Assembly (NCBI GenBank): GCA_030621915.1
Contig: JAUXGV010000008.1
Coordinates: 1 to 34,133 of the forward strand
Origin: Flavobacteriaceae bacterium
GTDB taxonomy: Bacteria; Bacteroidota; Bacteroidia; Flavobacteriales; Flavobacteriaceae
Direction of reading: 5' to 3'
Length of the DNA stretch: 34,133 bases
A program made the translations under genes and the position numbers. Positions 2,383-25,647 of this stretch are shown here, one piece after another. Under the pieces are notes generated by a model. The model saw only the letters and a list, made by a program, of their open reading frames with translations. It made no database searches and was not told the origin of the DNA. Position 1 is the stretch's first letter, and each line of letters begins with the position of its first letter.

Positions 2383-5300
2383 GTGAAAAAAGATTTAAAA
2401 TATATTTCGCTGGAAAACTTCACAACTGAAAGTGGGTATTTTTATCCTGAATTGGAATTATCATACCAAACATTTGGACCAAAATTAAATTCGGCTCCAG
2501 TTGTTTTGGTAAACCATGCACTTACAGGTAATTCCAATGTGGCTGGTGAAGGGGGATGGTGGAATTCGTTAATTGGTATCGGTAAATTAATCGACACAAC
2601 CCAATATACCATTGTTGCCTATAATATTCCAGGGAATGGTTATGATGAAAAAGAGGGTAATTTTATTGAAAATTATGAAGATTTTACTGCAAGAGATATA
2701 GCAAATTTGTTTGGTTTGGCACTCGAAAATATCGGAATAGATAAATTGTTTGCAGCGATTGGAGGTTCATTAGGAGGTGGTATAGCATGGGAAATGACAG
2801 TTTTATTCCCAAATCTCATCGAAAATTTAATTCCAGTAGCTTCTGATTGGAAGGCATCTGATTGGATTTTAGCACATAATAAAACCCAACTTCAAATTCT
2901 TTCAAACTCAAGTAAACCGGTACACGATGCGCGAATGATGGCCATGTTATTTTATAGAACTGCTGACTCCTTCAAACAAAAGTTTAATCGTACAAAAAAC
3001 AAAGAACAAGGAAATTTCAATACAGAAAGCTGGTTATTATATCATGGCGAAAAATTAGAAAATCGCTTTACATTGCAAACCTATAAACTGATGAATCATT
3101 TGTTGAGTTCAGTTGATATTACCAGAAACAGAGGAACCTTTAACGAAGTAGCAAGCCAAATTAAGGCTAATATCATTCAAGTTGGAGTAGATTCGGATTT
3201 TTTTTTCGTACCCGCAGAAAATAAAGAAACTCAAAAATTATTGGATAAAGCCGGAGTTGAAAATAGTTATGAAGAAATCAAATCTATTCATGGACATGAT
3301 GCCTTTTTGATTGAATACAATCAATTATCTAAAATTTTACATTCTGTTTTTCAGCAACCTAAATCAAAAAGTTTAGAAAGTAAAAAACTTAAAATCATTA
3401 AATTTGGTGGGAAATCATTATCAAATGGGAAGGGACTTAATAGGGTTTTACAAATAATTTCTGATAAAAAAGCTAATAATGAAAAAATATCTGTTGTAGT
3501 TTCAGCAAGAGGTAATTCAACTGATTTATTAGAACGAATTTTAGAAAATGCCAAAAAAGGTGATTCGTATAAAAGTCTTTTTGAAGAATTTAAAACCTAC
3601 CAAACTATCCCAGATAGTAGTATAGATTTTAACCATGAATTTACGCTCTTAAAGAAAATTTTCGATGGTGTAAGTTTATTGGGTGACTATAGTGAAAAAA
3701 TCAAAGATCAGGTACTATCACAAGGTGAAGTTTTGTCGACCAAATTAATTGTTAAATTGCTAAATGATAAAGGGATTGAGTCCAATTTTGTAGATGCGAG
3801 AAATTTAATAATTACGGATAAAAGTTTTGGTGAAGCTATTCCAATTCAAGAAGTCTCCAGAGAAAATGTAAAAAAGTTCTTTAATAAAAACGATTCTGAA
3901 TTACAAATAATTACAGGATTTATTGCCTCAAATATTTATGGTGAGACTACAACTTTAGGCAGAAATGGAAGTAATTATACGGCCTCTTTATTTGCCAATT
4001 ATTTGGATGCGGAAGAATTAGAAAATTATACCCATGTAAACGGAATATATACTGCAAATCCAGATTTAGTATCGAATGCTCAAAAAATTGAAGAACTCAC
4101 CTTTCAGGAAGCAAATGAACTGGCCAATTTTGGTGCGAACATTTTACATGCCAAAACCATCATCCCGCTTGTTGAAAAAAATATTCCTTTGCGATTGTTA
4201 AATACTTTTGATGATAAAAATACCGGTACACTAATTAAATCAAAAGCTACCTCAAAAGGAATACGATCTGTCACAGTACAAAATAATGTGTCACTAATAA
4301 ATCTAGAAGGTAGAGGATTATTAGGTACTGTAGGAATCGACGCTCGGATTTTTTCTTCTTTAGGCAAAGAAAATATAAATGTAAGTATCATCTCTCAGGG
4401 ATCTTCTGAAAGAGGTATTGGATTTATTGTAGATTCAATAGATGCGATTAAAGCAAAAGAAATATTAGAACAAGAGTTCGCAAACGATTTAAAAACGAAG
4501 GATGTTAATCGAATTTATATTAAAAATAAATTATCAATAGTTTCAATCATTGGTCAAAATTTAAGCAATTTTCATAATTCATACAATGCAATTATTAAAA
4601 ACAGAATCAATCCGATTTTAATTAACAATACAATTTCAGGTGATAATATTTGCCTGGTAATAGAAGATGATGATTTACATAAAGCCGTTAATGTAATCCA
4701 TGGTCAAATATTCGGAGTTTCTACCAATATTAACATTGCTATATTCGGTGTTGGTTTGGTAGGTGGTACTTTAATTGAACAAATATTGACAAGTAAAAAA
4801 AATATCTTAAAAAGAAAAAATATTAATCTAAATATTTTCGCTGTAGGTAATTCTAAAAAACTTGTTTTAAATAATAATGGGATTTCTTCAAATTGGCAAG
4901 ATGAATTGGAGAATAGTAATAATGTTGATTATACTATAAATGATATTATAAGTTATGCAAGAGGAAATCATTTAGAAAATTTAATCGCTGTAGATAATAC
5001 TGCCAGCATAAACTTTATTAAAAATTACATTCCCTTGGTTGAAAATGGGTTTGACCTGGTTTCATCTAACAAAATTGCAAATACTGTTGATTATGAATTT
5101 TATAAAGATCTAAGAGCTCAACTTGAAGTGAATGAGAAAAAGTATTTGTATGAAACCAATGTTGGCGCTGGATTACCTTTAATAGATACTATTAAATTAT
5201 TGCATCATTCTGGGGAAAATATTACAAAAATTAAAGGTGTATTTTCCGGATCATTAAGTTATTTATTTAATAATTTTTCATTGCAAAATAAATCCTTCAG

Positions 5301-5805
5301 TAAAATATTACAAGAAGCAATTGACCAAGGATTTACTGAGCCGGATCCTAGAGAGGATCTTGGCGGTAACGATGTTGCAAGAAAATTATTGATTTTGGCA
5401 AGAGAATTAGATTTGGAAAATGAATTTAACGATGTAGAAATTAAAAATCTAATCCCAGAAAAATTAAGAATGGGTACAGCGGCTCAGTTTCTAACCAAAT
5501 TGAAAGATTTGGATCAGGAATATGCAAATATTAAGTTTGATCAAGAAGAAAATCATGTATTAAGATATATTGGTGAGTTATCAGGTGATTTGAATAAGTC
5601 CAAAGGTATTTTAGAGGTTAAATTAGTTTCGGTTCCATCGGATAGTTCTTTAGGTCAAATAAAAGGATCTGATTCAATTTTTGAAATTTATACGGAATCC
5701 TATGGTGAACAACCTCTTGTTATTCAAGGTGCAGGCGCTGGGGCTAAGGTTACCGCCAGAGGTGTATTTGGAGATATTCTACGATTAACAGAAAAAGCAA
5801 TTTAA
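2383..5805 (+). CDS. fusion: homoserine O-acetyltransferase, aspartokinase-like, homoserine dehydrogenase
   Basis: A 1140-aa protein of three modules. Residues 1-330 are a MetX-type alpha/beta hydrolase, with nucleophile S129 in GGSLGGG, D272 in SDFFFVP and H305 in HGHDAFL. It acetylates homoserine. Residues 337-780 resemble aspartokinase with paired ACT domains (GLLGTVGIDARIF, IISQGSSERGIGFIV). Residues 784-1140 are homoserine dehydrogenase: Rossmann motif FGVGLVGG, ETNVGAGLP, GFTEPDPREDLGGNDVARK. The kinase module differs at usually fixed positions: FGGKS for FGGTS (K344), GRNGSNYTA for GRGGSDYTA (N528, N531), YTHVNG for WTDVxG, and NPDLV for DPR. It may be weak or regulatory only. The GTG start is forced, because an in-frame TAA lies at 2377-2379. 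The gene is under the SAM riboswitch and ends 1 nt before the next gene. The fused product would supply acyl-homoserine to MetY/MetZ. Confidence 0.93.
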   Translation: MKKDLKYISLENFTTESGYFYPELELSYQTFGPKLNSAPVVLVNHALTGNSNVAGEGGWWNSLIGIGKLIDTTQYTIVAYNIPGNGYDEKEGNFIENYEDFTARDIANLFGLALENIGIDKLFAAIGGSLGGGIAWEMTVLFPNLIENLIPVASDWKASDWILAHNKTQLQILSNSSKPVHDARMMAMLFYRTADSFKQKFNRTKNKEQGNFNTESWLLYHGEKLENRFTLQTYKLMNHLLSSVDITRNRGTFNEVASQIKANIIQVGVDSDFFFVPAENKETQKLLDKAGVENSYEEIKSIHGHDAFLIEYNQLSKILHSVFQQPKSKSLESKKLKIIKFGGKSLSNGKGLNRVLQIISDKKANNEKISVVVSARGNSTDLLERILENAKKGDSYKSLFEEFKTYQTIPDSSIDFNHEFTLLKKIFDGVSLLGDYSEKIKDQVLSQGEVLSTKLIVKLLNDKGIESNFVDARNLIITDKSFGEAIPIQEVSRENVKKFFNKNDSELQIITGFIASNIYGETTTLGRNGSNYTASLFANYLDAEELENYTHVNGIYTANPDLVSNAQKIEELTFQEANELANFGANILHAKTIIPLVEKNIPLRLLNTFDDKNTGTLIKSKATSKGIRSVTVQNNVSLINLEGRGLLGTVGIDARIFSSLGKENINVSIISQGSSERGIGFIVDSIDAIKAKEILEQEFANDLKTKDVNRIYIKNKLSIVSIIGQNLSNFHNSYNAIIKNRINPILINNTISGDNICLVIEDDDLHKAVNVIHGQIFGVSTNINIAIFGVGLVGGTLIEQILTSKKNILKRKNINLNIFAVGNSKKLVLNNNGISSNWQDELENSNNVDYTINDIISYARGNHLENLIAVDNTASINFIKNYIPLVENGFDLVSSNKIANTVDYEFYKDLRAQLEVNEKKYLYETNVGAGLPLIDTIKLLHHSGENITKIKGVFSGSLSYLFNNFSLQNKSFSKILQEAIDQGFTEPDPREDLGGNDVARKLLILARELDLENEFNDVEIKNLIPEKLRMGTAAQFLTKLKDLDQEYANIKFDQEENHVLRYIGELSGDLNKSKGILEVKLVSVPSDSSLGQIKGSDSIFEIYTESYGEQPLVIQGAGAGAKVTARGVFGDILRLTEKAI

Positions 5806-7858: not shown

Positions 7859-7948
7859 AATTGAGAACTCAGAAGAATATTTTATAATACCTTCCTGAGC
7901 ATCTCATAATTATTGAAAGTAATATTGCAAATCAAATAGTTCTCAATT
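7859..7948. repeat. 11-bp inverted repeat between convergent genes
   Basis: AATTGAGAACT (7859-7869) just after the siroheme gene is matched by AGTTCTCAATT (7938-7948), which overlaps the last codons of the rubredoxin fusion gene. Inside, CTCAGAAG and CTTCCTGAG form a further 8-bp stem with a bulged C. Neither is followed by a clear T run, so a terminator role is uncertain. Confidence 0.45.
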
Positions 7949-9359
7949 CAAAACTCTTTTTCGGAGCTTCACAAACCGGACACTCATATTCAATAGTTAT
8001 GTCTTCGAACAAAGTTCCTGATTCAATACTGAATTTTTTATCTCCTATCTCAGAATCATAAACCGTTAAGCATTCACCACATTGGTAGACTTCTTTTTCA
8101 ATATTTTCATTTTGCCCCAATTCTTTTAACGATTGATCCTCTTCAGATTCACCCAATTCTTCAAAATATAATTTGCTTAATTCCATTAATAGACCCGGTA
8201 ACTCAATTTTATCCACATCTTGGGCATATACCAAATATTTCTGAGTATTAGGGTTGAAATTTTCGCAATAAAGAACATTATATGTTGGCCTTATATGAAA
8301 ATCCTTAACTATGTTAGGCAGGGTGTTTTTCTCAATAACAATGGAAGTGAAATAAATTTTATTTTCTCCTCGATTCGTAATGGCAAATGTCAACCCGTAG
8401 GTACTTATATCATTTTGATTAAAATTAGTCACTATGAATTTTTTAAGAGCCAATGCTTTTTCATCATTAACAGGTAGGTGCCAATTAAGTTCCAATAGAG
8501 AATGCCTTATATTAATTCCCGACTTTCCCAGAAGCTTTTCCAACATTAATTTGCTTTCCCTCGGAATTCCTTTTACAATAAAAGATTTCCATGGAGTTAT
8601 ACATATTTTACCAATTCTATTGTCCAAACAGAAATCACAAAATACATTTAAAAAGTCAAGATAATATTTATTATTTCGCCAGTACAATCCCAACCAATAT
8701 TGATTGATCCCCATTTTGTTCATCCCTTCATAATAGGGAAAAGGCTTAAATTCGACTTCTAATTCTGATTCAATAGTTCTGCTATTTGTTTCGATTTGAT
8801 TATTTACCAGTATAAACAATTCATCTACATCTTCAGCATCAAGATAGGTTTCCTCAATTATCTTGGAAATTTTAGAAATATCCCAACTATAAATAAGTAC
8901 AGGATAATAAACAGATTCATTCCAATTGGGTAACCGAAGATTCAAATACCAATAATCTTCATGTACGGAACTAATAAAATTTAGTTGACCGCTAAACAAG
9001 GGAGACAACTGTTGTTTTGGATCTGAAATATTAATTTTTAATTTGGGTTGATGTTTGAAACTTTCTAAAACATACAAATAGGTCGAACCATTTAACCAGG
9101 TTGTTGATGGAAAAATATCGGCAGCAACATATGAACAAACAATATTTTGATAAGTGGGATCAGAAATCATGCTTGTACTCAGTTTCGGAAATTGACTCTC
9201 TAAATGGTCCTTCATCATATGCTCAGGGAATATGATATCTTGTCTTGACCCAAAATGTATTGCATCCAACCCCAAAGATTCCGCATAATTGAGAATTCTT
9301 TTCAATTCACTTGGAGATAATATTCCACCCTTAATAAATATTCTTTTTAAATCTATCAT
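7932..9359 (-). CDS. nitrite/sulfite-reductase-like protein lacking siroheme ligands, fused to rubredoxin
   Basis: A 475-aa protein. The N-terminus (GILSPSELKRILNYAESLGLDAIHFGSRQDIIFP) resembles the ferredoxin-like half-domain of siroheme reductases. A second such repeat lies near residues 220-330 (ICITPWKSFIVKGIPRE). The paired cysteines that bind siroheme-[4Fe-4S] are absent. The only other Cys group is CDFC with one more Cys about 10 residues on. The C-terminus is a full rubredoxin: C427-X2-C430 and C460-X2-C463, with exactly 29 residues between the pairs, and YDSEIGDKK and GTLFEDI. It is probably not a reductase. An electron-transfer or docking role for the nitrate reductase is an inference from the 3-nt gap to that gene. 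It ends convergently with the siroheme gene. Confidence 0.85.
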   Translation of the reverse strand: MIDLKRIFIKGGILSPSELKRILNYAESLGLDAIHFGSRQDIIFPEHMMKDHLESQFPKLSTSMISDPTYQNIVCSYVAADIFPSTTWLNGSTYLYVLESFKHQPKLKINISDPKQQLSPLFSGQLNFISSVHEDYWYLNLRLPNWNESVYYPVLIYSWDISKISKIIEETYLDAEDVDELFILVNNQIETNSRTIESELEVEFKPFPYYEGMNKMGINQYWLGLYWRNNKYYLDFLNVFCDFCLDNRIGKICITPWKSFIVKGIPRESKLMLEKLLGKSGINIRHSLLELNWHLPVNDEKALALKKFIVTNFNQNDISTYGLTFAITNRGENKIYFTSIVIEKNTLPNIVKDFHIRPTYNVLYCENFNPNTQKYLVYAQDVDKIELPGLLMELSKLYFEELGESEEDQSLKELGQNENIEKEVYQCGECLTVYDSEIGDKKFSIESGTLFEDITIEYECPVCEAPKKSFELRTI

Positions 9360-9362
9360 AAT

Positions 9363-12300
9363 CTATACATTAACCAGGTTTTTTTGTAAGGCCCTTTGAA
9401 AGATATCTTTCACCTCTGGCTTACAGCTCCCACAACCCATTCCTGCCCCAGTGATTTTACACAATTCGGCATAATCTGTACATCCTGATATGACTGTCTC
9501 TTCTAAATTTCCAACTCCAATCTGACTGCAAGAACAGATTAGTTTTCCTTTTACAGGTACGGATGGTTCATTTGATCTCAATAATTCTTCTCTTTTTTCA
9601 CCAAGTTCAATTTTATCTTCAATCAATGTTTTAAATTCTGCAAATTCATTTTTATCACCCAATAAAACGGCTCCAATCAATCGATCATTTTTGATAATAC
9701 ATCGCTTATAATAGCGTTTATTCATGTCCATAAAAATAACTTCTTCATAAGAGGTGTCTTTTTCTGAAAAGAGAACGGTTCCAATACTGCATAAATCTAA
9801 ATCTTCAAATTTTAAAATATTCATCAAAACAGAGCCTGAATAAATACTGCTAAGATCACCCAAAATATATTTTACAGCGATATCGGCTTGTTGTTCCGCT
9901 GCTGAAGTAATTCCATATAAAAAATTATTGAATTCAGCAATTTCTCCTAAAGCAAATATATTTGGATCACTCGATTGTAAATGTTGATTTACAATGACAC
10001 CCCTTCTACAATCTAATTTTGATTGTCTGGCCAATTCAATATTTGGTATAGTTCCAATTGCATAAACAATGGCGTTAGCATAAATTACTTTTCCGGTCTT
10101 TAATGTAATTGACAATTTATTAGGTGAATCATCATCTTCAAAAACCGTACTTACTTCATTATCAAAATATATCTGAATTCCCCTTTCCTGAACATCTTCT
10201 GCCAATAACCTACTCGCAATTAAATCCAATTGTCGTTCCATGAGTCGGGAAGCACGCTGAACGATTGTAATTTGTATGTTTTTTTTATTGAGAGTTGCTG
10301 CTAATTCAAGACCCAATAGGCCTCCACCAACAATTATAACATGCTGTTCTTTTTCAGAAAGCCCTGTATTTTGTAAATGACTTTTTAATCTTTCAGCATC
10401 AACCCTGTTTCTAAGAGTATATCTTCCCGGCTGATCTAGTTGAGCGTTTGAAGGAACAAAAGCTCTACTACCGGTTGCAATAATAAGCTTATCGTAACCA
10501 TGCTTTTCACCATTACTATCAATTACAATTTTATTGTTTTTATCCACATTTGTAATCAAAACTCCTGGAAATAAATTCAACTTTAATTTGTCAATTTCAC
10601 TTTGTTTGACTTTTTCAAGTTGCTCCCAGGTTAATTCATCACTAACATATTCAGGTAATAACACCCTATTATAAAAGGGATCATTTTCCTTTGAAAATAC
10701 CAAAATTTCGTCCTCATAGTTATGATCACGATAACTTTGTGCAAATCTAAAAGCAGCAGCTCCAGCTCCAACTATGCATATTTTTTCTTTGGTTTTTTTA
10801 TATTTGTCAACTTCTACTGCACTATATTTAAAATCTGGCTCTTTGGAAATTGGATCAATTAAATTATTAGTCAGATTATTGGCTCTACCAAAATCATTAT
10901 TCAATATTTTACCCCAGTGCATGGGCATAAATACCACACCTTTTCTAATATTAAATCCAAGCTTTACTTTTACTCTTACTTCTCCTCTAGCACTTTTAAT
11001 AATCGCAATATCTCCTTCTTTTAAATTTCTTTCAAGGGCATCCACATTATTAATTTCAAGAAATGGAGATGGAATGTGAGTATCTAACCTATTTACTTTT
11101 CCGGTTCTTGTTCTGGTATGCCATTGGTCTCTTATACGACCCGTTGTTAGAACCAATGGAAATGCTCTAGAAACTCTTTCTGATTGATTTTCGGTATGTT
11201 GAGGTAAATTAAATTGAGCCTTACCCGAAATTGTAAAAAATTCATGATTGGTAAAAAGTCTTGAAGTGCCTTGATGCTCTTTTGATGGAACCGGCCATTG
11301 CATACTTCCTTCTGATTTCAATCTCTCGTAAGACAAACCTGAAATATCTATGTTAGTCCCTTTTGTAAGTAGACAATGTTCGTCAAAAATATCACTGGAA
11401 CTTTCATAGTCAAATCCCTGAAAATTCATTTTTTGAGCAAATCGTGTAAAAATCTCAGCATCTGGCAATGCATCTCCCGGGGGTTCAACACCTTTTTCCA
11501 AATAACTAATTCTTCGTTCAGAATTCGTCATCGTACCTTCTTTCTCCAACCATCCCGCTGCCGGCAATAACAAATCGGCGTATTTGGTAGTTTCCGAATT
11601 ATTAGAAATATCCTGCACAATAACAAAATTGGCTTTCTCAAGGGCTGCTTCTACCTTCAAAGAATCAGGTAGACTAACCACCGGGTTTGTGCAAACAATC
11701 CAGATAGCTTTTAACTTCCCCGAATGTAAGGCATCGAACATCTCCGTCGCCGTCAATCCTGGTTTTTCGTTAATCTCCTTTCCGCCCCAAAAATCTGAAA
11801 CTTGTTTTCTGTGTTCAGGATTTGCCAAATCTTTATGGGCAGCCAATAAATTTGCCATTCCTCCCACTTCTCGACCACCCATTGCATTAGACTGTCCGGT
11901 TAGTGAAAATGGCCCTGAACCTTTTTTGCCAATTTGACCTGTTAACAAGGAAAGGTTCATCAGTGATACATTTTTATCAACGCCTATTACACTTTGATTT
12001 AAACCCATGGTCCACATACTAATAAAGGCATTGGAATCTCCAATATATTGAGCAGCTTTCTTAATTTCCTTTATTGTAATCCCACATGATAAAGCAGCAT
12101 CAGATAAGGAAGTCTTGAATACTTTTTCTTTCACCAATTCATAATCTTTCGTATGATTCTGAATAAATTTTTTATCAATTTTCTTCTTCTCAATCAATCG
12201 TCTTGCAATGGCATTAAATAAGATTACATCCGTTCCTGGGATTATTTGAAGATGTAAATCTGAAAGCGCTGAAGTTTGAGTTATTCTCGGATCAACAGTT

Positions 12301-12902
12301 ATGATTTTTATATCCGGATTTTCTTCTTTATGTTTTACCAACCGCTGGAATAAAATTGGATGACACCAAGCTGGATTTGCACCAGCTATTAAAAAACAAT
12401 CTGCCAATTCAATATCTTCATAAGAAATTGGTACCGAATCTTCTCCAACAGTTTTTTTATAACCCACTACAGCAGAACTCATGCATAATCTGGAATTGGT
12501 ATCTATATTATTTGTTCCAATAAAACCTTTGGTTAACTTGTTTATAATATAATATTCCTCTGTTAAACATTGACCTGAAACATAGAACCCTACACTATCA
12601 GGACCGTGTTTTTTGATAATTGATTTAAATACTGCAGTGGCTCTTTCCAAGGCCGAATCCCAGGTAACTTGTTTTAATGGGTGATTCCTACTCCACCTCA
12701 TTTGAGGATGCAAAATCCTATCAGAAGTGTTTTGCACAACATAATTCAAGTTCATCCCTTTGGAACAAAGCATCCCTTTGTTTACCGGATAATCCGGATT
12801 TCCTTCAACTTTCAAATTTCCCTTTGAATCCTTGTTTACGATAATACCACACCCTACACCACAATAAGAGCAAGTTGTTTTATAGGATTTATTTACAGAC
12901 AT
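9363..12902 (-). CDS. assimilatory nitrate reductase fused to FAD/NAD reductase and BFD domains
   Basis: Reduces nitrate to nitrite in the cytoplasm. Residues 1-680 are a molybdopterin oxidoreductase with a [4Fe-4S] site at C11, C14, C18 and C46. It has the dinucleotide-binding tail (LTTGRIRDQWHTRTRTG, FMPMHWG). Residues about 700-1110 are a NirB/NasB-like FAD and NAD(P) module (ICIVGAGAAAF, VIIVGGGLLGLELAATL, IFALGEIAEF). The last 50 residues are a BFD-like [2Fe-2S] domain (ICSCSQ, CGSCKPE). The protein therefore looks like Bacillus NasC joined to NasB, able to draw electrons from NAD(P)H by itself. The track begins at a TTG (12914). I prefer the ATG at 12902, four codons in, which gives 1179 aa. 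It is expressed from the promoter-operator at 12926-12955 and runs into the rubredoxin fusion gene with a 3-nt gap. Confidence 0.93.
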   Translation of the reverse strand: MSVNKSYKTTCSYCGVGCGIIVNKDSKGNLKVEGNPDYPVNKGMLCSKGMNLNYVVQNTSDRILHPQMRWSRNHPLKQVTWDSALERATAVFKSIIKKHGPDSVGFYVSGQCLTEEYYIINKLTKGFIGTNNIDTNSRLCMSSAVVGYKKTVGEDSVPISYEDIELADCFLIAGANPAWCHPILFQRLVKHKEENPDIKIITVDPRITQTSALSDLHLQIIPGTDVILFNAIARRLIEKKKIDKKFIQNHTKDYELVKEKVFKTSLSDAALSCGITIKEIKKAAQYIGDSNAFISMWTMGLNQSVIGVDKNVSLMNLSLLTGQIGKKGSGPFSLTGQSNAMGGREVGGMANLLAAHKDLANPEHRKQVSDFWGGKEINEKPGLTATEMFDALHSGKLKAIWIVCTNPVVSLPDSLKVEAALEKANFVIVQDISNNSETTKYADLLLPAAGWLEKEGTMTNSERRISYLEKGVEPPGDALPDAEIFTRFAQKMNFQGFDYESSSDIFDEHCLLTKGTNIDISGLSYERLKSEGSMQWPVPSKEHQGTSRLFTNHEFFTISGKAQFNLPQHTENQSERVSRAFPLVLTTGRIRDQWHTRTRTGKVNRLDTHIPSPFLEINNVDALERNLKEGDIAIIKSARGEVRVKVKLGFNIRKGVVFMPMHWGKILNNDFGRANNLTNNLIDPISKEPDFKYSAVEVDKYKKTKEKICIVGAGAAAFRFAQSYRDHNYEDEILVFSKENDPFYNRVLLPEYVSDELTWEQLEKVKQSEIDKLKLNLFPGVLITNVDKNNKIVIDSNGEKHGYDKLIIATGSRAFVPSNAQLDQPGRYTLRNRVDAERLKSHLQNTGLSEKEQHVIIVGGGLLGLELAATLNKKNIQITIVQRASRLMERQLDLIASRLLAEDVQERGIQIYFDNEVSTVFEDDDSPNKLSITLKTGKVIYANAIVYAIGTIPNIELARQSKLDCRRGVIVNQHLQSSDPNIFALGEIAEFNNFLYGITSAAEQQADIAVKYILGDLSSIYSGSVLMNILKFEDLDLCSIGTVLFSEKDTSYEEVIFMDMNKRYYKRCIIKNDRLIGAVLLGDKNEFAEFKTLIEDKIELGEKREELLRSNEPSVPVKGKLICSCSQIGVGNLEETVISGCTDYAELCKITGAGMGCGSCKPEVKDIFQRALQKNLVNV

Positions 12903-12925
12903 AAATTGGTTCAATTTTATGTTTA

Positions 12926-13860: not shown

Positions 13861-15318
13861 TCATTTAAATCCAAGTTCCGGAATTTTTTTACAAATCATT
13901 CTTTGTACTACACGATGCATCCAAACCAGACAAATTGCGGATAGGAATATCATCAAGATCCAACTACTTGACCACAAGCCTGTACCTTCTAATAAATAAC
14001 CAAATAAAATAGGGCAAACAAAACCTCCTAAACCCCCTAATACACCAACCATGCCACCGACAACACCAACTTCTTCAGGAAAATAATCCGGAATATGTTT
14101 GTAAACCGCCGCCATTCCGATTCCCCAAATAAACCCTATCATAATTGTAAAAATTGCAAATACCCAAATATTTGCCTGAAAATAAATATGTGTTTTACCT
14201 TCAACAATTAACTGCTTTTTGACAATTTCATCACCTACCCTTACTTTTGCCTCTTGCCAGGAAACTTTTACAGGAAAAATTTTAAATTCATTATCGATAT
14301 TTTCAAGTTGACTTTCCTTTAATAATATATCATATTTTTTTTCACCAATCATTATAAATGAACTTGTTACTTCTGTAACAATACCAGCTTGCTTGGCATT
14401 AATGCCTTTTCCTGTGGTATAAATATCCATTTTAGGTATAAATAATAGAACGCTAAAAATTACTGATGAAACTAACACCCAATACATCACTTTTCTTGCT
14501 CCATATTTATCAGAAAGCCAACCTCCAAAAATTCGCATAATTCCCGTAGGTAAACTGAAAGCAGATACAAATAATCCGGCTGATGCCAAATTGAGTTTAT
14601 ATACATTGGTATAATATGGAACCAACCACCCTGCAAAAGAAACAAAACAACCAAAAACCAAAAAATAATACAAACCAAAGCGCCAAACTCTTAAACTTTT
14701 AAGTGGTTTCAGCATACCTTTTAAATTTTTAGAACTAGTTTCAGGCTTTTTATTCTTGGTAAATAAATAAAATATAATACCCATAACAACCAAAGCTACT
14801 GCATATATCTGGGGCATTATTCGCCAACCATCTAAATTTGTCTTATCATCAGTTAAATATTCTAATAACTTTGGTCCAACCATAGTAGTGATTGCCGCCC
14901 CGGCATTTCCAGCCCCAAATATACCCAAGGCTAACCCTTGCTTTGATTTTTTAAACCAAATTGAGGTGTATGCCACGCCAATGGCAAAACTGGTTCCAGC
15001 CATACCAAAACCTAAACTACATAAGGCAAAAGTCCAAAAGTCATTGGCATAAGAAAGCAAAAACATGGGTACGGCACATAAAAATAATAGGCCGACATAT
15101 ATGGGTTTACCACCGAATTTATCAGTTAATATACCAGCAGGAAGCCTGAATAAAGCGCCAGTAAGAACCGGAATTCCAATCAACCACCCTACTTCTACAG
15201 AGGTCCAATCAAAAACCTGATTATCAACTAAAAAGGTCACTAATACTCCATTTAGTAACCAAACTGCAAAACACACCGTAAAAGCAAAAGTATTTAAAAA
15301 TAAAGTTTGATTAGCCAT
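13861..15318 (-). CDS. NarK-type nitrate/nitrite MFS transporter
   Basis: A major facilitator protein with about 12 predicted membrane spans that imports nitrate and/or exports nitrite. The NarK family signatures are present: GMAGTSFAIGVAYTSIWF, GLALGIFGAGNAGAAITT, FRLPAGILTDKFGGKP and the second-half GIMRIFGGWLSDKYG. The track starts at a TTG (15339). I prefer the ATG at 15318 (MANQTLFLNTFAF), giving 485 aa. That is longer than many NasA/NarK proteins because of an insert of about 80 residues (roughly 297-378) between spans 9 and 10, which should face the periplasm. It is beta-rich and charged (GIVTEVTSSFIMIGEKKYDI). A 7-2-7 operator controls the promoter, so co-regulation with nasA is likely. 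Confidence 0.92.
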   Translation of the reverse strand: MANQTLFLNTFAFTVCFAVWLLNGVLVTFLVDNQVFDWTSVEVGWLIGIPVLTGALFRLPAGILTDKFGGKPIYVGLLFLCAVPMFLLSYANDFWTFALCSLGFGMAGTSFAIGVAYTSIWFKKSKQGLALGIFGAGNAGAAITTMVGPKLLEYLTDDKTNLDGWRIMPQIYAVALVVMGIIFYLFTKNKKPETSSKNLKGMLKPLKSLRVWRFGLYYFLVFGCFVSFAGWLVPYYTNVYKLNLASAGLFVSAFSLPTGIMRIFGGWLSDKYGARKVMYWVLVSSVIFSVLLFIPKMDIYTTGKGINAKQAGIVTEVTSSFIMIGEKKYDILLKESQLENIDNEFKIFPVKVSWQEAKVRVGDEIVKKQLIVEGKTHIYFQANIWVFAIFTIMIGFIWGIGMAAVYKHIPDYFPEEVGVVGGMVGVLGGLGGFVCPILFGYLLEGTGLWSSSWILMIFLSAICLVWMHRVVQRMICKKIPELGFK

Positions 15319-15379
15319 GCTTGTATTCGAAGTCCCCAAAATATAATTATCCTTAAATTCAAATTCATTAATAATGAAG

Positions 15380-15713: not shown

Positions 15714-16490
15714 TCAGAATGACATCCCCAGTACACGTTGTATTTCTTCTTCCAAAAATGCCGGATGTTCTGCTACCACATCACCAATTACAATAATTCC
15801 CGGAGAAGAATAATCTATATTATCAATTACATTGTTGTAATTATTCAATGTTTCTATAATGATGTTTTCATTGGGAAGTGTTCCATTCTGAATGATTGCA
15901 AAGGGTGTGTATTTGTGACGATGATTTTTTATTTCGTTCATAATTAATGAAAAATTACGAAGACCCATTAAAATTATTAATGTTGCAGAAGATTGAGCTC
16001 CCAAAGCAATATCCTCTGATATATCACCAGTAGATGTTGTACCTGTCATTACCCAAAATCCTTCACTAATTCCCCGTTTTGTCATCGGAATTCCCTGATT
16101 GGTAGGGACGGCAAGTGCACTACTTATCCCAGGAATAAATTCGGTTTCTACTCCTTGACTTTCAATAAATAAAGCCTCTTCACTTCCTCTTCCAAAAACA
16201 AAAGGGTCTCCTCCTTTTAATCGAACAACAGTGCCATATTCATTGGCATAATCTACCAGCATTTCATTGATCTCTTCTTGAGAAAACTTATGAGAATTAA
16301 ATCGTTTTCCAACATATATGCATTGAGCACTTGCCTTAACATTTTTCAACAATGTTTTATTTACCAAGGCGTCATACAAAACAACATCTGCATTCTCAAT
16401 CGCCCTTAATCCTTTTACTGTAATCAAATCTACATCTCCAGGGCCAGCACCAACCAATATTACTTTCGGATTTTTTGTAATTTTTTTCAT
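15714..16490 (-). CDS. cobA: uroporphyrinogen-III C-methyltransferase
   Basis: A 258-aa SAM-dependent enzyme that methylates uroporphyrinogen III at C2 and C7 to give precorrin-2, the branch point to siroheme. Family motifs include VGAGPGDVDLITVKGLRAI near the N-terminus, RLKGGDPFVFGRGSEE and GISSALAVPTNQGIPMTKRG. It is a stand-alone SUMT without uroporphyrinogen-III synthase or CysG N-domain. The missing oxidase/chelatase step is encoded at 7276-7857. It is divergent from nirB, and the shared 132-bp region holds the nitrate-type heptamers. Siroheme supply is therefore probably tied to nitrite reductase expression. Confidence 0.95.
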   Translation of the reverse strand: MKKITKNPKVILVGAGPGDVDLITVKGLRAIENADVVLYDALVNKTLLKNVKASAQCIYVGKRFNSHKFSQEEINEMLVDYANEYGTVVRLKGGDPFVFGRGSEEALFIESQGVETEFIPGISSALAVPTNQGIPMTKRGISEGFWVMTGTTSTGDISEDIALGAQSSATLIILMGLRNFSLIMNEIKNHRHKYTPFAIIQNGTLPNENIIIETLNNYNNVIDNIDYSSPGIIVIGDVVAEHPAFLEEEIQRVLGMSF

Positions 16491-16622: not shown

Positions 16623-19145
16623 ATGAAAACAATTATTATTGTCGGGAATGGAATGGTTGGTTATAAGTTTTGTGAAAAATTTGTAGTCAAAGAACAAAGT
16701 AAAGATTACAGATTGATCGTATTTGGTGAAGAACCAAGACCCGCATATGATAGGGTTCATTTAAGTGAATATTTTAAAAATGGTGATGCCCAAGCTTTGG
16801 AAATGGCACCTCGGACTTGGTATGAAGATAATAATATTGATTTAATCACTAATGAAAGAGTGACAGATATTCACAGAGGTAGTAAAACAATAACAACCGT
16901 TAAAGAAAATGAATACTCATTTGATTATTTGGTGCTTGCCACGGGTTCAGCTCCTTTTGTTCCTCCAATTAATGGAGTAGAAAAAGAAGGTGTTTTTGTA
17001 TATAGAACCATCGAGGATCTAGAAGGAATGCTTTCATATGCGGAAAAAATCAAGCAAAAAAACCCTAAGGCTAGAGCCGCTGTATTGGGTGGGGGACTAT
17101 TAGGACTAGAGGCGGGAAAAGCAGTAATGGATATGGGATTAGAACCCCATGTGGTTGAATTTGCACCCAAATTAATGCCAAGACAATTAGATATAAGAAG
17201 CAGTAAAGTTCTGCAGGTGAAATTAGAATCTATGGGCATCAATATCCATTTGAGTAAAATTACAAATCAGATTTTGGGCAATGGTTGTATTACCGGAATG
17301 GAATTCGGAGAAGACGATCAATTAGATGTTGATATGTTGGTAATTTCTGCAGGGATTAGACCAAGAGATGAATTGGGCAAGACCTGTGATTTGGAGATGG
17401 GGGTTCGTGGAGGTATTGTTGTGAACAACAAAATGCAAACTTCAGACCCAAGTATTTTTGCCATTGGTGAGGTTGCCTTATACAATCAAATGATTTATGG
17501 TTTGGTAGCTCCTGGATATGAAATGGCGGAGGTTGCAGTAAATCAAATTTTAGGAAATTCTGACGCTTCCATGAGTGAAGAAATTGATATGTCAACCAAA
17601 TTAAAGTTGATTGGTGTTGACGTAGCAAGTTTTGGGGAACCATTTATGCCCTCACATAAGGGTCATTCCATTTTATTTGAAAATAAAACAAAAAGCCTAT
17701 ATAAAAGAATCAATGTAAGTCATGATGGTAAAACCCTATTGGGAGGTATTTTAGTAGGAGATGCCTCCGACTATAATATTTTGCATCAAATCTATTTAAA
17801 TAATATGACATTGCCGGATAACCTGGAAGATTTGATATTAGGCGCACGTGGCGAAGCTGGTGGATCTGCCTTTGGAAGTGCAATGGATTTACCGGATACA
17901 GCCCAAATTTGCTCTTGCGAAAACGTTTCAAAAGGTGAAATATGCAATTCAATTATAAAAGAAACTTGTGAAAATTTACAAGATGTGATCTTTTGCACCA
18001 AAGCAAGCACCAGCTGTGGAGGTTGTAAGCCCATGGTTGCCGATTTGGTAAATCAAACTTTAAAATCTTTAGGCAAAGAAGTAAAAGAAACCATATGTGA
18101 GCATTTCGAATACAACCGTCAAGAGCTATTTGAAATTATTAAAATTAAAAAATTAACTTCCTATGATGAAGTTTTAGACATCTGTGGAAAAGGTGACGGA
18201 TGTGAAATTTGCCAACCTTTAATAGCTTCTGTTTTTGCCAGTTTGTATAATGATACGGCAAACAAAGAAGAAGTAATTCAGGATTCCAATGATAAATTCT
18301 TAGCCAATATTCAAAGGAATGGAACTTATTCTGTTGTACCAAGAATTCCCGGTGGAGAAATTACTCCTGAAAAATTAATTGTTATCGGTAAAGTTGGTAA
18401 AAAATATAACTTGTATACAAAAATTACTGGAGGTCAACGAATAGATTTATTCGGTGCTGAACTCAATGATTTACCTGCCATTTGGAAAGAATTAATTGAC
18501 GCTGGATTTGAAAGTGGACACGCTTATGGTAAATCTCTTCGAACCGTCAAGAGTTGCGTCGGCTCCACTTGGTGCAGGTTTGGACTGGATGAAAGTGTAA
18601 GTTTTGCCATTGAATTGGAAAATAGGTATAAAGGATTGCGGTCTCCACATAAACTTAAAGGAGGAGTTTCTGGTTGTATTCGTGAATGCGCTGAAGCCAG
18701 AGGGAAGGATTTTGGTGTTATTGCAGTAGAAGGTGGATGGAACCTTTACGTATGCGGCAATGGAGGTGCAACTCCAAAACATGCACTATTACTCGCTGAG
18801 AAAATAGACAATAAGACCTGTATCAAATATTTGGATAGATTTTTAATGTATTATATCCGTACTGCCGCTCCATTAATGCGAACAGCCGCTTGGCTGGATA
18901 AATTAGAAGGCGGGATGGAGCAATTGAAAAAGGTTGTTATTGATGATGTTTTACGAATTAATGATGAAATGGAAAACGAAATGCAATCTTTGGTTGATGC
19001 CTATGAATGTGAATGGAAACAAGCCATTGAAAATGATGAAACTAAAAAACGTTTTAGTCATTTTGTAAATTCTAACGATAGAGATGATAATCTTGCATTT
19101 GTTCCGATACGAGATCAGAAAATGCCAGAACTTTGGAAAAATTAA
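16623..19145 (+). CDS. nirB: nitrite reductase [NAD(P)H] large subunit
   Basis: An 840-aa siroheme nitrite reductase that makes ammonium from nitrite using NAD(P)H. Residues 1-400 hold the FAD and NAD domains (IIIVGNGMVGYKF, AAVLGGGLLGLEAGKA, IFAIGEVALY). A BFD-like [2Fe-2S] domain follows (ICSCENVS, TSCGGCKPM). A second short Cys-containing repeat reads GDGCEICQP. The C-terminal part holds the ferredoxin-like half-domain and the siroheme-[4Fe-4S] ligands C645-X5-C651 and C685-X3-C689. Nothing is missing. The gene lies under the 7-2-7 control region and 109 nt ahead of nirD. The FAD module resembles that fused to the nitrate reductase at 9363, which suggests a common origin. Confidence 0.97.
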   Translation: MKTIIIVGNGMVGYKFCEKFVVKEQSKDYRLIVFGEEPRPAYDRVHLSEYFKNGDAQALEMAPRTWYEDNNIDLITNERVTDIHRGSKTITTVKENEYSFDYLVLATGSAPFVPPINGVEKEGVFVYRTIEDLEGMLSYAEKIKQKNPKARAAVLGGGLLGLEAGKAVMDMGLEPHVVEFAPKLMPRQLDIRSSKVLQVKLESMGINIHLSKITNQILGNGCITGMEFGEDDQLDVDMLVISAGIRPRDELGKTCDLEMGVRGGIVVNNKMQTSDPSIFAIGEVALYNQMIYGLVAPGYEMAEVAVNQILGNSDASMSEEIDMSTKLKLIGVDVASFGEPFMPSHKGHSILFENKTKSLYKRINVSHDGKTLLGGILVGDASDYNILHQIYLNNMTLPDNLEDLILGARGEAGGSAFGSAMDLPDTAQICSCENVSKGEICNSIIKETCENLQDVIFCTKASTSCGGCKPMVADLVNQTLKSLGKEVKETICEHFEYNRQELFEIIKIKKLTSYDEVLDICGKGDGCEICQPLIASVFASLYNDTANKEEVIQDSNDKFLANIQRNGTYSVVPRIPGGEITPEKLIVIGKVGKKYNLYTKITGGQRIDLFGAELNDLPAIWKELIDAGFESGHAYGKSLRTVKSCVGSTWCRFGLDESVSFAIELENRYKGLRSPHKLKGGVSGCIRECAEARGKDFGVIAVEGGWNLYVCGNGGATPKHALLLAEKIDNKTCIKYLDRFLMYYIRTAAPLMRTAAWLDKLEGGMEQLKKVVIDDVLRINDEMENEMQSLVDAYECEWKQAIENDETKKRFSHFVNSNDRDDNLAFVPIRDQKMPELWKN

Positions 19146-19254: not shown

Positions 19255-19632
19255 ATGGAAGCAATATTATCAAAATACAAAACCACCACCTTAAATGATG
19301 TGAATATTTGGTTTAAGGTGACAGCAGTTAAAGAATTTCCCGAAAATGGAGGCTTGTGTGTGAAATATAAGGACAAACAAATTGCTGTTTATAATTTCTC
19401 TCGAAAGAATAAATGGTATGCTTGTCAAAATGCATGTCCTCATAAAATGGAAATGGTGCTTTCACGTGGTATGCTTGGTGATGATCATGGGGCTCCGAAA
19501 ATAGCCTGCCCTATGCATAAAAAAACATTTTCTCTTGAAACTGGTGAAAACTTAAACGGTGACTTAGAGGCCATTTCAACTTACCCAGTTAAGATTGAAA
19601 ATGGATATGTATTTATTGGCTTTTCGGAATAA
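19255..19632 (+). CDS. nirD: nitrite reductase small subunit, Rieske-type
   Basis: A 125-aa NirD-family protein that pairs with NirB. The Rieske fold keeps all four cluster ligands: C61 and H63 in NACPHKM, and C85 and H88 in ACPMHKK. A [2Fe-2S] centre is therefore predicted, whereas the enterobacterial NirD lacks it. The rest (KVTAVKEFPENGG, YPVKIENGYVFIGF) fits the family. It starts 109 nt after nirB. The gap has a GGCTC/GAGCC pair without a T run and repeated ATACC words, but no convincing promoter, so read-through from nirB is likely. Confidence 0.92.
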   Translation: MEAILSKYKTTTLNDVNIWFKVTAVKEFPENGGLCVKYKDKQIAVYNFSRKNKWYACQNACPHKMEMVLSRGMLGDDHGAPKIACPMHKKTFSLETGENLNGDLEAISTYPVKIENGYVFIGFSE

Positions 19633-20262: not shown

Positions 20263-20877
20263 TTGATATTCCAACAAAACCAAATAAATAATACTGTGAT
20301 CGATAGATTTAAAAAAGCCATACAATTGTTTGATGAGGCCAATTCAAATGATCCTCATACTGAAATTTCTGAAGGCAAAGAATATCCAAAAGAATTACTA
20401 TATGCCATGAGAATGACTCATAAACTCAATGAATTTGAACCGAATGCCTCGGTTGAAGTTCAATTGGCCGTACGTTGTCAACATATTTGCAGATGGGAAA
20501 TTTCAAGAGGTTCCTATGAAATAAATCGAAAAGGATACTTGTCATGGCGTAGAGACCTTGCGAAGTTCCATGCCGTTAAGGCTTCAGGAATATTAAAAGA
20601 AGTGGGTTTCGATGATTCTGTAATCGAAAAAGTGGCATTTTTACTTCAGAAAAAACAACTTAAAAAAAATGAAGAAACTCAACTTTTAGAAGATGTAATA
20701 TGTCTGATATTCTTAGAGAATTATTTTGAAAATTTTTCTGAAAAATATTCCGAAAGTAAATTAATTGATATCGTTCAAAAAACCTGGGCTAAAATGTCTG
20801 ATAAAGGACATGAATGGGCTTTGAAAATAAATTTTTCAAAAAAATCTCTAAACTTAATCCAAAAAGCCATCGCTTAA
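20263..20877 (+). CDS. DUF4202 family protein
   Basis: A 204-aa helical protein matching DUF4202: FDEANSNDPHTE, KELLYAMRMTHKLNEF, VQLAVRCQHICRWEISRGSYEINRKGYLSWRRDLAKFHA, and ETQLLEDVICLIFLENYF. Conserved His, Arg and Asp/Glu residues (MTHKL, CQHICRW, LEDV) suggest an HD-like metal site, but no activity is established that I know of. The track start is TTG. A GTG at 20296 (giving MIDRFKKAIQLF) fits the family N-terminus equally well. The gene sits between the nitrite reductase unit and the sensor kinase, so a role in nitrogen assimilation is plausible by context only. Confidence 0.8.
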   Translation: MIFQQNQINNTVIDRFKKAIQLFDEANSNDPHTEISEGKEYPKELLYAMRMTHKLNEFEPNASVEVQLAVRCQHICRWEISRGSYEINRKGYLSWRRDLAKFHAVKASGILKEVGFDDSVIEKVAFLLQKKQLKKNEETQLLEDVICLIFLENYFENFSEKYSESKLIDIVQKTWAKMSDKGHEWALKINFSKKSLNLIQKAIA

Positions 20878-23538: not shown

Positions 23539-25647
23539 ATGAGAAGTTTTAGAACCGAAATAGAGAATCCAATTGTTGAGAAGGACATTTTAGAATTGGA
23601 ACGAAAAATCCAGCTTTTTAAAGAAGGTAAATTGGATGAAGATCGTTTTAGAAGTCTGAGATTGGCACGTGGTGTGTATGGCCAGCGTCAACAAGGAGTT
23701 CAAATGATTAGAATTAAATTACCTTTTGGAAAGGTTACCTCTGAACAATTGCACCGAATTGCTGACGTGTCTGATGAATATTCCAGAGGAAGATTGCATA
23801 TTACTACTCGACAAGATATCCAAATTCATCATGTTAGTTTAGAGAGAACTCCTGAACTTTGGTCGGAATTAGAAAAAAGTGATATTACCTTGCGTGAAGC
23901 CTGTGGTAATGCGGTTAGAAATGTTACTGCCTCAGAAACTGCTGGAATTGATCCTGAAGAACCTTTTGATGTTTCTCCTTATGCAGATGCAACGTTTAAA
24001 TTTTTTTTAAGGAATCCAGTATGCCAGGAAATGGGAAGAAAATTTAAAATTTCATTTTCAGGAACTGATGAGGATACAGCCTTAAGCTTTTTACATGATT
24101 TAGGTTTTATTGCTAAAACAAAGGAAATTAACGGCGAATTAGTTAAAGGATTTAAAATTCTTTTAGGAGGAGGGTTAGGTTCACAACCAAGACAAGCCGA
24201 TGTTGCATTTGACTTTTTAGAAACCGATAAAATAATTCCATTTATTGAAAGTGTTCTAAGAGTATTTGACAGATATGGTGAAAGAAACAAGCGTGCAAAA
24301 GCCAGACTAAAGTTTTTGATAAAGGATATTGGTTTTGAAGAATTTATAAACCTTATCCAACAAGAACAAAAGGCATTGTCTTATCACTCATATCCTATTG
24401 ATACCAGTTCATTTGACAATCTTATTGAGCTACCTGAAATTGAAATTCCAAAGGCTTCAATTGACGATGTTGAAATATATAATACTTGGAAAGAGACCAA
24501 TGTATATAAACAAAAACAAGAAGGCTTATACGCCATTGGAATAAAAGTAAAATTAGGCGATTTTTATACAGATAAAGCCAGATTATTGGCTGAATTGGTT
24601 AAAGACTATGCAGGTGATGAAATCAGGTTGTCCTTGCGCCAAAATATATTAATCCGACATGTAAAAAAGGAATTGCTTCCATTCTTCTATACGGAATTGG
24701 AAAAACTAGGCTTTGTTGAGTCAGGTTACAATAGCACACTCGATATTACTGCCTGTCCCGGAACAGATACCTGTAATTTAGGAATTGCCAGTAGCACAGG
24801 AATCGCAGGGGTTTTAGAAAACGTACTAAAAAATGAATATCCTAATTATGTAAACAACAAGGATGTGACCATTAAAATAAGTGGTTGCATGAATGCTTGT
24901 GGGCAACATAATATGGCACATATTGGTTTTCAAGGTATGTCTGTAAAATCAGGTAAATATGTTGCCCCCGCACTTCAAGTGCTTTTAGGTGGTGGTATTC
25001 TTGGAGACGGACAAGGCAGATTTGCAAATAAAGTAATAAAAATTCCAAGTAGGAGAGGCCCGGAAGCTCTTCGATTAATTTTGAATGACTATGAAAAAAA
25101 TGTGATTAACGGTGAGTCATTTTTGGATTATTATGACCGACGAGAAGAAAAATATTTCTATCAATTATTAAAACCTCTTGCGGATGTTACCAATTTAAAA
25201 GCAGAAGACTTTATAGATTGGGGTCAGGAAAGTGCTTACGTAAAAGCCATTGGAATTGGTGAATGTGCTGGTGTAATTATTGATTTGATAGCAACACTAC
25301 TATTTGATAGTGAAGAAAAAATTCAAAACGCTGAGGAATCTCTGAAGGAAGGACAATGGGCAGATAGTATTTATCATTCGTACAATACTTTAATTAATAC
25401 AGCCAAAGCTGTATTGATTGCCGAAGAAATTAAAACGAATACTCAGGCCGGTATCATTAGAGATTTTGATAAATATTTTATAGAAAGCGGTGTTATTTCG
25501 TTGAAATCTTCCTTTTCTTCAATGGTTTATCAAATCAATCAGAATGAACCATCAAAAGAATTTGCCATGCTATATCTTGAGGACGCCAAAATATTTTATA
25601 AATTAGTTGATGACCTAAGAACTAAGGCCTTACAAAATGCAAGTTAA
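23539..25647 (+). CDS. ferredoxin-type sulfite reductase with HEPN-like C-terminal domain
   Basis: A 702-aa siroheme reductase next to cysH, so sulfite is the probable substrate, giving sulfide. Two ferredoxin-like and two catalytic half-domains are present (GVQMIRIKLPFGKVT, RQDIQIHH, RLSLRQNILIRHV). The siroheme-[4Fe-4S] ligands are C406-X5-C412 (ACPGTDTC) and C450-X3-C454 (GCMNAC). Residues about 565-700 form an extra all-helical tail with a HEPN-like pattern (ADSIYHSYNTLINTAKAVLI). The RxxxxH motif of HEPN nucleases is absent, so a nuclease role is unlikely. A nitrite reductase role is the alternative, but NirBD is already present. Confidence 0.9.
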   Translation: MRSFRTEIENPIVEKDILELERKIQLFKEGKLDEDRFRSLRLARGVYGQRQQGVQMIRIKLPFGKVTSEQLHRIADVSDEYSRGRLHITTRQDIQIHHVSLERTPELWSELEKSDITLREACGNAVRNVTASETAGIDPEEPFDVSPYADATFKFFLRNPVCQEMGRKFKISFSGTDEDTALSFLHDLGFIAKTKEINGELVKGFKILLGGGLGSQPRQADVAFDFLETDKIIPFIESVLRVFDRYGERNKRAKARLKFLIKDIGFEEFINLIQQEQKALSYHSYPIDTSSFDNLIELPEIEIPKASIDDVEIYNTWKETNVYKQKQEGLYAIGIKVKLGDFYTDKARLLAELVKDYAGDEIRLSLRQNILIRHVKKELLPFFYTELEKLGFVESGYNSTLDITACPGTDTCNLGIASSTGIAGVLENVLKNEYPNYVNNKDVTIKISGCMNACGQHNMAHIGFQGMSVKSGKYVAPALQVLLGGGILGDGQGRFANKVIKIPSRRGPEALRLILNDYEKNVINGESFLDYYDRREEKYFYQLLKPLADVTNLKAEDFIDWGQESAYVKAIGIGECAGVIIDLIATLLFDSEEKIQNAEESLKEGQWADSIYHSYNTLINTAKAVLIAEEIKTNTQAGIIRDFDKYFIESGVISLKSSFSSMVYQINQNEPSKEFAMLYLEDAKIFYKLVDDLRTKALQNAS

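Follow-up and report, generated by a model that had tools for sequence, protein, structure and literature searches.

In the genome of a Flavobacteriaceae bacterium, a gene at positions 7932–9359 of the 34,133-nucleotide stretch of DNA that we analyzed (hereafter, the window) raises the question of what a protein built like a siroheme reductase, apparently stripped of its cluster cysteines and ending in a rubredoxin, is doing directly behind a nitrate reductase. Read from the minus strand, the gene runs from an ATG at 9359 to a stop codon at 7932–7934 and encodes 475 amino acids, which ORF translation, Pfam, AlphaFold2 and Foldseek resolved into a pseudo-sulfite-reductase (pseudo-SiR) core and a C-terminal rubredoxin, with cysteines at positions 75, 241, 244, 253, 365, 427, 430, 460, and 463 and nowhere else. 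Its start codon is separated from the stop codon of the nitrate reductase gene (9363–9365) by the 3 nucleotides 9360–9362, with the pseudo-SiR gene downstream on the minus strand, which agrees with the gap given in an earlier note on this DNA. Public databases annotate the family only as 'rubredoxin', as in WP_232563077.1 of Spirosoma oryzicola, a protein of the same family at the same position behind a 'nitrate reductase'; this label passes over the 400-residue core and so hides the protein. We found no papers on the protein in the openly licensed literature, and a search of a plasmid collection returned full-length homologues in Bacteroidota only.

The core (residues about 1–402, encoded at 8154–9359 on the minus strand) was predicted over its whole length to comprise a pair of ferredoxin-like half domains along with two SiR-like lobes. 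The N terminus matched the Pfam family NIR_SIR_ferr (E 5e-7, above the curated cut-off), as did that of each of 72 non-redundant homologues. From these 72 homologues we built an AlphaFold2 model of the 475-residue protein (mean pLDDT 86.8, pTM 0.79), for which the top Foldseek match in the PDB was the Escherichia coli sulfite reductase hemoprotein SiRHP (E 1.3e-16, TM 0.65, 480 columns, 16% identity), followed by NirA and plant nitrite reductases, with rubredoxins as separate matches. A second model, of a relative without the rubredoxin, likewise matched Mycobacterium tuberculosis NirA (E 2e-15) and SiRHP (E 7e-15), and the two-repeat fold of sulfite and nitrite reductases was present across the whole core. 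Because searching the solved structures by sequence returned essentially only rubredoxins, this relationship was one that the fold search had to reveal. The recognizable siroheme-reductase fold proposed in the earlier note was thus borne out, and the structure prediction that it had suggested as a check found SiRHP and NirA and no unrelated fold.

The ligands of the [4Fe-4S] cluster told a different story from the fold. Comparison of profiles (hhalign) with the CysI of the window and the NirA proteins of nitrate clusters extended over 385 columns with an E value of 6e-4, in an alignment that is approximate at 12–16% identity. The 475-residue protein contained neither a CX5C nor a CX3C cluster motif, and opposite the four cluster cysteines of the window's CysI it had no cysteine, which together indicate, at the level of sequence, that the core has lost its [4Fe-4S] ligands, as the earlier note had read it. 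Clear as its fold is, the protein is by this ligand test outside the siroheme reductase enzymes. The same note had gone on to call it siroheme-less, which goes too far. In the profile alignment R39, Q40, N72, S76, K106, and K108 paired with the residues of the TRQ, RN, and KxK motifs of CysI and NirA, which we take from the SiRHP structures to be siroheme or substrate contacts in the real enzymes, and all of these except K106 were invariant or nearly so in the homologues, including those without the rubredoxin. Among the polar and basic residues of the site R39, N72, and K108 were kept, and the arginine of the RN motif was replaced by glutamine or proline.

The tail (residues 425–471, 7947–8087 on the minus strand) is a complete rubredoxin, as had been claimed. 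It matched Pfam PF00301 (E 5e-13) with the motif C427-X2-C430-X29-C460-X2-C463, and its predicted structure matched solved rubredoxins (for example 2pve, TMt 0.93). All four cysteines were present in 72 of the 72 non-redundant homologues, 71 of which also gave the Pfam match. In three nitrate-reductase-linked loci (L153, L155, and L205) the loop between the CX2C pairs was strongly shortened. A further set of cysteines, the CDFC motif C241-X2-C244 and the third cysteine C253 (8601–8639, minus strand), lies in and just after a predicted helix at residues 234–246. The suggestion that these residues might bind a metal fared less well: the cysteines are there, and across 86 fused or distant homologues they were strongly, not strictly, conserved (C241 in 80, C244 in 84, and C253 in 66), with serine replacing C241 in six and C244 in two, and alanine replacing C244 in L205. 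An essential metal site at CDFC is unsupported, since its cysteines were replaced in several members.

The neighboring nitrate reductase (9363–12914, minus strand; 1183 amino acids) combines in one chain a NasC-type Mo-bisMGD/[4Fe-4S] enzyme (residues 1–703), a NirB-type FAD/NAD module, and a BFD-type [2Fe-2S] domain, as assigned with Pfam and NCBIfam. The FAD module belongs to the NADH:rubredoxin-reductase superfamily; the C-terminal module matched the C-terminal domain of rubredoxin NAD+ reductase (E 1.6e-20) as well as the flavorubredoxin reductase NorW. Across 122 homologous loci all the cluster cysteines were conserved in every case where the relevant portion of the gene was covered by the sequence; the NAD motif was present in all seven nitrate reductases inspected. 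Judged from these residues, the fused enzyme looks self-sufficient with NADH, with a complete chain from NADH through FAD, [2Fe-2S], and [4Fe-4S] to Mo.

The association of the two genes was tight and operon-like. The fused nitrate reductase lay immediately upstream of the pseudo-SiR gene on the same strand in 109 of the 109 loci with a readable flank (a count in which some genomes may appear twice, from both collections searched), with a median gap of about 4 nucleotides and a gap of 12 nucleotides or fewer in 84 of them. The same gene order was found in 13 of 13 sampled rubredoxin-bearing homologues from across the phylum (31–56% identity), on plasmid records, and, within family f18, in 23 of the 24 loci, with the remaining one at a contig edge. 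The adjacency in all 109 loci, together with its persistence in distant homologues, excludes chance linkage. Among 60 close relatives, the protein was present in 12 of the 12 genomes with the fused enzyme and in 0 of the 48 without it, a contrast for which a simple p-value would be misleading, the genomes being related. Overall, it occurred in 12 of those 60 genomes and in 24 of a set of 298. The protein is thus a likely partner of the one-piece NADH nitrate reductase in nitrate-assimilating Bacteroidota.

The remaining genes of the window include, by their assignments, a probable NarK-type nitrate/nitrite transporter of the MFS family (13861–15339, minus strand; Pfam MFS_1, 2.7e-47), in a position that NarK occupies in the Spirosoma annotation; a CobA-type uroporphyrinogen-III methyltransferase of siroheme synthesis (15714–16490, minus strand; TP_methylase, 1.8e-46); NirB, the large subunit of a genuine siroheme nitrite reductase (16623–19145, plus strand; NIR_SIR 1e-20, NIR_SIR_ferr 4.5e-11, and FAD/BFD domains); and its Rieske small subunit NirD (19255–19632, plus strand; Rieske_2, 1.6e-25). 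Near nirBD there is also a DUF4202 protein (20263–20877, plus strand; E 7e-74), and in another locus (L152) a copy 50% identical to it adjoins the pseudo-SiR gene, so DUF4202 may belong to nitrate assimilation. Elsewhere in the window, the CysI/NirA-like sulfite reductase (23539–25647, plus strand) carries a C-terminal extension that matched HEPN (Pfam PF05168, E 5e-5), an unusual fusion with near full-length matches in three other genomes (G713, G339, and G789), and a 1140-residue ORF (2383–5805, plus strand) appeared, by eye from its translation, to fuse homoserine acetyltransferase, aspartokinase, and homoserine dehydrogenase.

The partnership was not binding in both directions. Five genomes from other Bacteroidota classes had the fused nitrate reductase without the pseudo-SiR protein, contradicting a strict need of the one for the other, and fused nitrate reductases without it probably occur in Proteobacteria as well. 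In those five genomes the cluster instead contained a NirA-type siroheme protein with its cysteines intact and a split CysJ-like flavodoxin/NADPH reductase, and a search for NirB gave no match, whereas NirB was found in 10 of 10 sampled genomes carrying the pseudo-SiR protein. In loci L157–L161 the flavodoxin and NADPH-FAD parts of the split CysJ are separate genes that lie between NirA and the fused nitrate reductase. The idea of a partner, and the proposed check of co-occurrence, therefore stood for the dedicated gene link and for the 60 close relatives, in which the match was exact, and did not hold from the enzyme to the protein in the five genomes of other classes.

The converse exception came from family f18, in which a single clade of homologues without the rubredoxin, carried by nine genomes, was nested inside rubredoxin-bearing homologues (SH-aLRT 100, one change on the tree). 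Seven of the nine also lacked the fused nitrate reductase, and none of these seven had a match to NirB. The rubredoxin was thus lost once, in a clade that also left the nitrate reductase locus, which argues that the rubredoxin tracks the nitrate reductase. The core persisted: about 43 near-invariant residues were kept, among them R39, Q40, N72, N110, D113, Q116, E211, R228, C244, K258, R285, H286, and K306. Because these residues survive where the linkage to nitrate reductase is gone, the core must do something separable from the rubredoxin and the nitrate reductase. At position 324, beside the lost cluster-ligand loop, this clade and some other members have a cysteine. The rubredoxin-less copies had no conserved neighbor genes; the one in G789 (L195) adjoins CysI and genes resembling those of heme and siroheme synthesis. 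Two related genomes of one genus carry, in addition to a nitrate-reductase-linked copy, a second rubredoxin-bearing copy outside the nitrate clusters (L203, 7206–8684; L204, 7388–8866). The clade constitutes a natural experiment in which the roles of the two halves can be tested separately.

What, then, might the protein do? The best-supported answer, which we hold tentatively, is that the protein belongs to the one-piece NADH nitrate reductase as an accessory redox subunit, its pseudo-SiR core acting as an adaptor and its tethered rubredoxin transporting electrons for the nitrate reductase/NirB system. The core, a former sulfite or nitrite reductase without [4Fe-4S] ligands, would have become a binding scaffold, and the rubredoxin would shuttle single electrons around the nitrate reductase, most plausibly from its NirB-type FAD module to the Mo domain and/or to NirB, as a counterpart of the NasG ferredoxin of Paracoccus; for this pair of proteins we infer physical binding, electron transfer, and the direction of that transfer. 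Pointing to this reading are the unbroken adjacency in near and distant homologues, the exact co-occurrence in close relatives, the invariant rubredoxin cysteines, the tracking of the nitrate reductase by the rubredoxin, the rubredoxin-reductase type of the partner module, and the presence of NirB in the sampled carriers but not among the matches in the five non-carriers. It is weakened by the much shortened rubredoxin loops of L153, L155, and L205, and the persistence of the core in a clade with neither rubredoxin nor, mostly, nitrate reductase suggests that the core is more than a dock for that enzyme. Nor is a carrier obviously needed, given that the nitrate reductase appears to have a complete chain of its own and that fused enzymes occur without the pseudo-SiR protein.

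That internal chain, which would make a stoichiometric carrier unnecessary, speaks instead for the first of two serious rivals, a maturation or assembly factor. Such a factor would keep hold of the nitrate reductase in its apo form or watch over the insertion of Mo-bisMGD, FAD, or clusters, using the rubredoxin to gauge iron or redox state, and would not remain in the finished enzyme. Dedicated chaperones such as NarJ are usually encoded directly downstream of their clients, which is where the pseudo-SiR gene lies, a few nucleotides away, and rubredoxin-like domains are known from hydrogenase maturation factors. We nevertheless regard this account as rather unlikely, because the protein resembles no known Mo-enzyme chaperone (Pfam and NCBIfam gave no match to families of the NarJ, TorD, or NapD type), its fold is that of a redox enzyme, and its core survives in one clade without any nitrate reductase.

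The survival of the core can also be read, in the second serious rival, as a sign that it has kept, without a cluster, the ability to bind a tetrapyrrole or an anion (siroheme, nitrite, or sulfite) and serves as a sensor, scavenger, or enzyme, for instance against nitrite or NO produced by the nitrate reductase, with the rubredoxin supplying electrons when the two are linked. The near-invariance of R39, Q40, N72, S76, and K108 even without the rubredoxin is consistent with such a pocket, as is the cysteine at position 324, and NasC-type reductases are a source of NO and in Bradyrhizobium are expressed together with a system that removes it (PMC4724949). Yet cysteine is not conserved at any of the four cluster-ligand positions, the siroheme-bridging one included, the RN-motif arginine is gone, the residue pairing depends on an approximate alignment, and most genomes with siroheme enzymes would be expected to lack the protein, given its sparse distribution. 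We therefore consider a ligand-binding core unlikely. It is likewise doubtful that this descendant of sulfite reductase retained a tetrapyrrole or anion pocket after losing its cluster and became a novel type of sensor or cofactor-bearing protein, serving the nitrate reductase when it has the rubredoxin tail and another process when, once the nitrate reductase is gone, it does not. A siroheme carrier for all siroheme enzymes is disfavored, since most relatives lack the protein and one carrier of the rubredoxin-less form (G695) had no match to CysI, NirA, or NirB at the cut-offs used.

A regulator, that is, a redox-sensing pseudo-enzyme tuning nitrate reductase activity or nitrate-gene expression to the state of iron or redox, would account for the conservation of many residues after loss of the catalytic ligands and for the strongly conserved CX2C pair in a helix, but Pfam found no DNA-binding or other signaling domain and the pair is replaced in some members, leaving this very improbable. 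That the protein is simply an active sulfite or nitrite reductase can, for all the whole-length match in fold, be set aside as scarcely credible: the missing cluster ligands in practice rule it out, and the genome has a separate intact NirB and CysI.

As a partner of the nitrate reductase, the protein would be a dedicated and overlooked component of nitrate assimilation in Bacteroidota, a major group in the sea and in soil, and a plain example of a sulfite reductase converted to a partner role that is non-catalytic or works in a different way. With E. coli SiRHP/CysI, M. tuberculosis NirA, and plant nitrite reductases it shares the twofold arrangement of ferredoxin-like half domains and SiR lobes (TM about 0.65–0.7), as well as the arginine and glutamine of TRQ, the asparagine of RN, and one lysine of KxK; it differs in lacking [4Fe-4S] ligands, in its 12–16% identity, in its C-terminal rubredoxin, and in being linked to a nitrate reductase, in whose place it does not act. 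The flavorubredoxin system NorV/NorW is similar in having a rubredoxin tail on a larger protein and a NorW-type reductase module in the partner, whereas the core here is SiR-like rather than a flavodiiron protein and has no diiron or FMN site. A precedent for the proposed role is NasG, the ferredoxin that links the NADH site of NasB to both NasC and NasB and that, in Paracoccus-type nas operons, is a small iron protein carrying electrons, its gene accompanying that of a cytoplasmic assimilatory nitrate reductase (PMC4724949); in the Bacteroidota system the putative carrier is instead a rubredoxin tethered to a pseudo-SiR core, and the nitrate reductase has the NADH module already built in.
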